NCBI RefSeq assembly: GCF_006274605.1
Contig: NZ_CP040846.1
Coordinates: 682,001-746,000, forward strand
Reading direction: 5' to 3'
From: Thermococcus indicus
Lineage (GTDB): Archaea; Methanobacteriota_B; Thermococci; Thermococcales; Thermococcaceae
Length of the DNA stretch: 64,000 nt
Shown here: piece after piece, positions 17,124 through 36,576 of the stretch
Position numbering within the stretch: the first letter of the stretch is position 1
How the letters are laid out: each line of letters opens with the position of its first letter
Notes under the pieces: model-generated
Databases searched by the model: none
Told to the model about the DNA's origin: nothing
Seen by the model: the letters and a program-made list of their open reading frames with translations, nothing else
Translations under genes and position numbers: made by a program

Positions 17124-17149
17124 CCCGTTTCTGTCCCACCAATCTTTTT

Positions 17150-17166
17150 AACCTTGGGTTTTGAAC
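17150..17166 (+). promoter_or_regulatory. SurR-type operator in the nsr/cdr promoter
   Basis: On the minus strand the sequence GTTCAAAACCCAAGGTT matches GTT-N3-AAC-N5-GTT exactly. It overlaps the end of the TATA box (tctttttaac, 17143-17152) and lies before the start codon at 17184, a position where the redox-sensitive regulator SurR would block transcription. SurR control of the homologous sulfur reductase in Pyrococcus is established; the site here is identified by eye. Confidence 0.68.
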
Positions 17167-17183
17167 CTCTTCTGGTGATGCTC

Positions 17184-18509
17184 ATGGAGAAGACGGTGGT
17201 TATCATAGGCGGTGGAGCGGCTGGAATGAGCGCCGCGTCTCGCGTTAAGAGGCTCAAACCCGAGTGGGACGTCAAGGTCTTCGAGGCAACGGAGTGGGTC
17301 AGCCACGCCCCCTGCGGCGTGCCCTACGTCGTTGAGGGCATCTCGCCGAAGGAGAAGCTCATGCACTATCCGCCCGAGGTCTTCATCAAGAAGAGGGGCA
17401 TAGACCTTCACATGAGGGCGGAGGTCATTGAGGTTGACCAGGGGGCGGTCAGGGTCAGGGAACCCGATGGGGAGCACACCTACGGGTGGGACTACCTCGT
17501 CTTCGCCAACGGTGCTTCCCCCCAGGTTCCGGCCATAGATGGCTGCGGCCTTGAGGGGGTTTTCACCGCGGATCTTCCGCCCGACGCAGTCGCGATAAGG
17601 GAGTACATGGAAAAGCACGATGTCAGGAACGTTGCTGTCATTGGAACGGGCTACATAGCCCTTGAAATGGCCGAGGCCTTCGTCGCCCAGGGTAAGAACG
17701 TCACCCTCATCGGCAGAAGCGAGCGCATCCTCAGAAAGACGTTTGACGGGGAGATCACCGAGGTCGTTGAGGAGAAACTCAAAGCCCACCTCAACCTCCG
17801 CCTTCAGGAACTGACGATGCGCTTTGAGGGCGATGGAAAAGTCGAGAGAGTTATCACGGACGCCAATGAGTACCCCGCGGATATGGTGATCGTGGCGACT
17901 GGCATAAAGCCCAACACCGAGCTCGCGAGGGAGCTGGGGGTCAGGATTGGAGAGACCGGGGCCATCTGGACCAACGAGAGGATGGAAACCAGCGTCGAGA
18001 ACGTCTACGCCGCCGGAGACGTTGCCGAGACGAGGCACCTGATAACCGGCAGGCGCGTCTGGATCCCGCTTGCCCCGCCAGGAAACAAGATGGGGTACGT
18101 TGCCGGAAGCAACATCGCCGGAAGGGACGTGGTCTTCCCGGGCGTTCTTGGAACGAGCATAACCAAGTTCCTTGACCTCGAAATAGGAAAAACCGGTCTA
18201 ACCGAGGCGGAGGCCATCAGGGAGGGCTACGACGTCAGGACGGCCTTCATAAAAGCGGGCACGAAGCCACATTATTATCCTGGTTCGAAGCAGATATGGC
18301 TGAAGGGAGTGGTTGACAACGAGACGAACAGACTCCTCGGCGTTCAGGCCGTCGGCGCCGAGATACTGCCGAGAATAGACACCGCTGCAACGATGCTCAC
18401 CGCGGGATTCACGACGAGGGATGCCTTCTTCACGGATCTGGCCTACGCACCGCCCTTCGCGCCAGTATGGGACCCGCTCATAGTCCTCGCCAGGGTTCTC
18501 AAGTTTTAA
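17184..18509 (+). CDS. CoA-disulfide reductase / CoA-dependent NAD(P)H sulfur oxidoreductase
   Basis: FAD-dependent pyridine nucleotide-disulfide oxidoreductase of 441 residues, very similar to the CoA-disulfide reductase of Pyrococcus horikoshii and NSR of P. furiosus. It transfers electrons from NAD(P)H to CoA disulfide or, with CoA, to elemental sulfur. Visible are the FAD-binding [16 protein letters not shown] (5-20), the single redox Cys44 in SHAPCGVPY, the NAD-binding [12 protein letters not shown] near residue 155, the second FAD motif [10 protein letters not shown] and the C-terminal [15 protein letters not shown]. The ATG at 17184 was chosen over upstream codons because GGTGAT lies four bases before it. 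The promoter contains a SurR-type site downstream of TATA. Confidence 0.9.
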
Positions 18510-32707: not shown

Positions 32708-32724
32708 AACCAAAAGTTAAAAAC
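32708..32724 (-). promoter_or_regulatory. SurR-type activator site upstream of hypF
   Basis: On the minus strand GTTTTTAACTTTTGGTT matches GTT-N3-AAC-N5-GTT exactly. It ends about 8 bases upstream of the hypF TATA element (CCTATAAAGG, 32691-32700), the position from which SurR activates hydrogenase genes in Pyrococcus. Identified by eye. Confidence 0.68.
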
Positions 32725-34138: not shown

Positions 34139-34155
34139 AACCTCTGGTTTTCAAC
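34139..34155 (-). promoter_or_regulatory. SurR-type activator site upstream of hypCD
   Basis: On the minus strand GTTGAAAACCAGAGGTT matches GTT-N3-AAC-N5-GTT exactly and runs into the TATA element GGTTTAAAAAAC (34131-34142). It overlaps the stop codon of the upstream protease gene (34151-34153). The upstream placement predicts activation of hypCD when sulfur is absent. Confidence 0.65.
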
Positions 34156-36559: not shown

Positions 36560-36576
36560 GTTTCAAACCTTGGGTT
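36560..36576 (+). promoter_or_regulatory. SurR-type activator site upstream of hypAB
   Basis: GTTTCAAACCTTGGGTT matches GTT-N3-AAC-N5-GTT on the plus strand. It lies 6 bases upstream of the hypA TATA element and overlaps the stop codon of the preceding membrane gene (36563-36565). The orientation of the third half-site is reversed relative to the hypF and hypC sites. Confidence 0.62.

Follow-up and report, generated by a model that had tools for sequence, protein, structure and literature searches.

Does the promoter of the CoA-disulfide/sulfur reductase gene nsr in Thermococcus indicus carry an operator for the regulator SurR, and is it placed so that the gene would stay repressed until sulfur is available? 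The window, meaning the whole 64-kb stretch of DNA analysed here, has a SurR-type motif just before this gene, which a preliminary description had read as a repressor site. It is highly probable that this motif serves SurR as an operator at the nsr promoter and that repression there would be relieved by sulfur; we infer binding, repression, redox release and the transcription start from relatives. The preliminary reading is supported in this respect, but it left unsaid that Nsr is a described SurR target.

The nsr gene and the site in its promoter

The gene had been described as a CoA-disulfide/sulfur reductase, and its matches agree. The product aligns over its full length with TIGR03385 (CoA-disulfide reductase) at 585.3 bits, above the curated cut-off of 578.8, and the closest PDB chains are 4fx9 and 3kd9, both coenzyme A disulfide reductase. 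Cys44 (in APCG) aligns with the cysteine of these two chains, a residue that is catalytic in this family. By these matches the gene is a Thermococcaceae CoA-disulfide reductase / NAD(P)H sulfur reductase (Nsr); the protein has no visible difference from TIGR03385, 4fx9 and 3kd9, and its activity is predicted. Matches to nsr occur in all 94 family genomes, and a close orthologue (at least 70% identity) is found in 91, the remaining three genomes being 61-77% complete. Besides the close orthologue there is a paralogue with about 36% identity (L074), and the 130 bp upstream of it lack the exact motif. T. onnurineus TON_0305 is a described homologue of the Nsr PF1186 (PMC4463584), and the one-copy pattern across the family genomes suggests that both are orthologous to the window gene.

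Table 1. Features of the nsr promoter and SurR motifs at the hyp genes (window positions)
Feature	Position	Strand	Basis
nsr / CoA-disulfide reductase, 441 aa	17184..18509	+	TIGR03385 and PDB matches
TATA-like element TTTTTAA, nsr promoter	17145..17151	+	read from sequence; TTTTAA kept in 83/89 orthologous upstream regions
SurR long motif GTTCAAAACCCAAGGTT (predicted operator)	17150..17166	-	exact match; 74/89 orthologous promoters; per-column information content
SurR core GTTn3AAC, nsr promoter	17158-17166	-	part of long motif
Third half-site of nsr SurR motif	17150-17152	-	shared with TATA
Extended form GGTTN3AACCN3GGTT, same nsr site	17150..17167	-	exact match, G000:C1:699150-699167
Shine-Dalgarno-like GGTGAT	17174..17179	+	read from sequence; GGTG conserved in orthologues
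SurR long motif before hypF (TIGR00143), upstream of TATA (activator position)	32708..32724	-	exact match; placement
SurR long motif before hypC-D (hypC: TIGR00074), upstream of TATA (activator position)	34139..34155	-	exact match; placement
SurR long motif before hypA (NF003008; gene on minus strand), upstream of TATA (activator position)	36560..36576	+	exact match; placement

A pattern scan of the window finds the claimed GTT-N3-AAC-N5-GTT as an exact minus-strand match, which reads AAC (17150-52)-CTTGG-GTT (17158-60)-TTG-AAC (17164-66) on the plus strand. The motif overlaps the end of TATA, as had been noted, since both A's of its outer AAC are common to TTTTTAA. From there it lies downstream of TATA, in the geometry of a repressor site, and its 9-bp core ends 17 bp upstream of the ATG (17166 to 17184), so that it precedes the start codon as described. 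It is the one long motif within 130 bp upstream of nsr. Measured transcription starts in T. kodakarensis lie about 23 bp downstream of TATA (PMC4247193), a spacing that would place the nsr start near 17170-17174 and make the motif span approximately -22 to -6.

SurR control of Nsr is already known for Thermococcales, and the sequence confirms this sulfur switch at the same gene in T. indicus. A 2009 paper on P. furiosus reportedly described repression of nsr by SurR in vitro. The relevant passages of PMC12162507 state that SurR sites upstream of TATA activate, that those downstream of TATA repress, and that Nsr is repressed by SurR (also a passage of PMC6316755); the repressor role first proposed from the placement agrees with this rule. 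In the T. piezophilus table (PMC8595942), the motif of Nsr (A7C91_RS06865) stands 17 bp before the start codon, as it does in the window. The nsr operators of T. piezophilus and P. furiosus (PF1186) have the same regulator, target gene and GTTn3AAC core as the site described here; in the T. piezophilus table the site is entered in its short form, whereas the window site also has an exact third half-site, which is no difference in kind. In T. onnurineus, P. furiosus and Palaeococcus pacificus, Nsr goes up on sulfur (PMC6981617, PMC4463584). A P. furiosus Nsr deletion grew on sulfur with no obvious defect (as cited in a passage of PMC6981617), suggesting that the physiological weight of Nsr is limited.

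Under this scheme, reduced SurR would sit on the palindromic core in the absence of sulfur, together with the third half-site that merges with TATA. Covering about -22 to -6 of the expected start, it may keep TBP/TFB or RNA polymerase off the promoter. Elemental sulfur would then oxidise the CxxC of SurR, the protein would leave the DNA, and nsr would be transcribed. The same release would switch off the hyp and hydrogenase promoters, where SurR is expected to act upstream of TATA.

It is also conceivable, if unlikely, that SurR binds but that a single site is too weak for strong repression, and that nsr is fine-tuned or otherwise controlled as well. Some promoters need both upstream and downstream sites for repression (Hidese 2017, as cited in a passage of PMC12162507), nsr has its single motif, and the response of Nsr to sulfur in relatives is moderate, being 2.4-fold in Palaeococcus pacificus (PMC6981617). 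One site is, however, the usual arrangement at Nsr, and PMC12162507 lists Nsr as SurR-repressed.

Conservation of the site and its chance rate

Motif counts are far weaker evidence than the recurrence of the site at one position in orthologous promoters. Among 89 orthologous upstream regions from Thermococcaceae, the window's own included and all read from the aligned start, 74 have the exact long motif within about 80 bp of the start and 77 have the 9-bp core there, and neither occurs between -300 and -100 in any of the 89. The other 15 promoters are without the exact long motif, some clearly so, and SurR wiring at nsr is therefore not universal. Column information was calculated for 40 promoters thinned for similarity, with TTTTAA as anchor. 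The six core letters away from TATA have 1.1-1.7 bits each, and most letters between the conserved ones only 0.15-0.6 bits. Three letters depart from this: the opening C and closing G of the n5 spacer reach 1.1-1.2 bits, and one T in the n3 spacer reaches 1.1 bits. According to PMC8595942, SurR occurs in Thermococcales only; the Archaeoglobales orthologues have the long motif in 0/16 cases and the short motif in 2/16.

A genome-wide count, which had been suggested as a measure of the chance rate, gives 42 exact long motifs in T. indicus, against 14 for the reversed control pattern. About 30 of the 42 are in promoter-like places, many of them before hydrogen and sulfur genes, as sorted by hand from the DNA stretches around each match. 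The window alone has four, where dinucleotide shuffles have a mean of 0.36 and none of 100 reaches four. Summed over 66 of the more complete family genomes the count is 2253 against 908 (2.5-fold), and in the window's own genus group it is 1568 against 384. Enrichment fades in the AT-rich groups g5 (153 against 168) and g6 (19 against 40), where the whole-genome count is a weak test.

The nsr match might be due to chance, or be a by-product of core-promoter composition, with TTTTTAAC followed by a T-rich stretch. The overlap of the third half-site with TATA and the modest family-wide excess would be expected from this. However, the information is concentrated in core letters that lie away from TATA, most of the intervening letters are not conserved, and a letter-shuffled pattern appears in 0.04 of the 89 promoters on average, compared with 74 for the real one. 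Only two of the 135 TTTWWA sites in the window lead into the core, namely the one at nsr and the hypC site in mirror image, and the Archaeoglobales orthologues, as given above, are without the long motif. Position-specific conservation and the controls reject chance and composition, which we regard as extremely improbable.

SurR and its other predicted sites

SurR is encoded in the genome at G000:C1:862748-863455, divergent from pdo as in the known regulon of Thermococcales. The product matches the NCBIfam SurR model NF047699 at 403 bits (cut-off 250) and PF0095 in the PDB (E 1e-91), and it has the N-terminal CxxC switch as C24-T-E-C27; an alignment of 21 examples shows both this CxxC and the helix-turn-helix conserved. 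The presence of the regulator and the exact motif in most orthologous promoters bear out the earlier designation of a SurR-type site. The surR promoter has a motif just upstream of its own TATA, in agreement with the self-activation of SurR stated in a passage of PMC12162507.

The motifs at the hyp genes also lie upstream of TATA (Table 1). With the nsr motif downstream of TATA, this fits the earlier statement that SurR acts oppositely on hydrogenase and sulfur-reduction genes in P. furiosus, and a single 64-kb window is predicted to hold both signs of regulation, with nsr repressed and the hyp genes activated. The resemblance to the SurR regulon of Thermococcales extends to motifs at the surR, hyp, sulfhydrogenase and Mrp-type cluster promoters and to the placement of activator sites upstream and the repressor site downstream of TATA. 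It differs in details only, namely C-N3-G in the n5 spacer and the loss of the nsr site in a few lineages.

With some two dozen HTH_20-like matches in the genome, a different winged-helix protein that recognises the same palindrome could be the one bound at nsr. This is very improbable, because the same motif with its C/G extension occurs at the promoters just named, which make up the described SurR regulon, and because SurR is present in 92 of 94 family genomes, including all 74 near-complete ones.

The extended motif and lineages without the nsr site

The preferred reading, a SurR operator at nsr, can be stated with a sharper motif. In the 94 Thermococcaceae genomes, GGTTN3AACCN3GGTT matches 379 times and its reversed control 19 times, a stronger contrast than that of the published long form, which indicates that many sites have C-N3-G as their n5 spacer and that this spacer is not free. 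This preference may be familiar to specialists from binding-site selections. Regulon predictions that use the sharper motif, in which many of the best sites show C-N3-G, would contain fewer false positives.

In several genomes the site at nsr is lost or altered. The outlying lineage G093 (contig MTLP01000028.1; L122, L147, L174) keeps SurR and the surR motif; the SurR core is missing from the nsr promoter of this lineage, whose genome shows no excess of the long motif (19 against 40 controls). In G045 (L131), G050 (L128/L151) and G055 (L124/L150), the block of TATA and motif is absent before nsr. A small reading frame immediately precedes nsr in G050 and G055, with no exact motif nearby, and the two apparently form an operon that lacks a SurR site. 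Neither surR nor nsr has an exact motif in G058.

A wider proposal, put forward tentatively and with some doubt, is that the nsr operator is stricter and has three parts, GGTTN3AACCN3GGTT, with the TATA box itself as third half-site, so that SurR and TBP would compete for the same bases. This operator would mark the core of the regulon, and in G093, G045, G050 and G055 nsr would have escaped sulfur control, with SurR retained.

Other exact long motifs stand before genes of various kinds. One is upstream of a further CoADR-like flavoprotein, which shares 32% identity with Nsr and is possibly the NPSOR-type enzyme (L049:1568-1584; G000:C1:585067-585083). Four others precede two proteins with no NCBIfam match, an amino-acid-racemase gene and an AhpD-like gene (L053:1570-1586, L054:1504-1520, L060:1474-1490, L072:1547-1563), targets that we would not expect in the SurR regulon.
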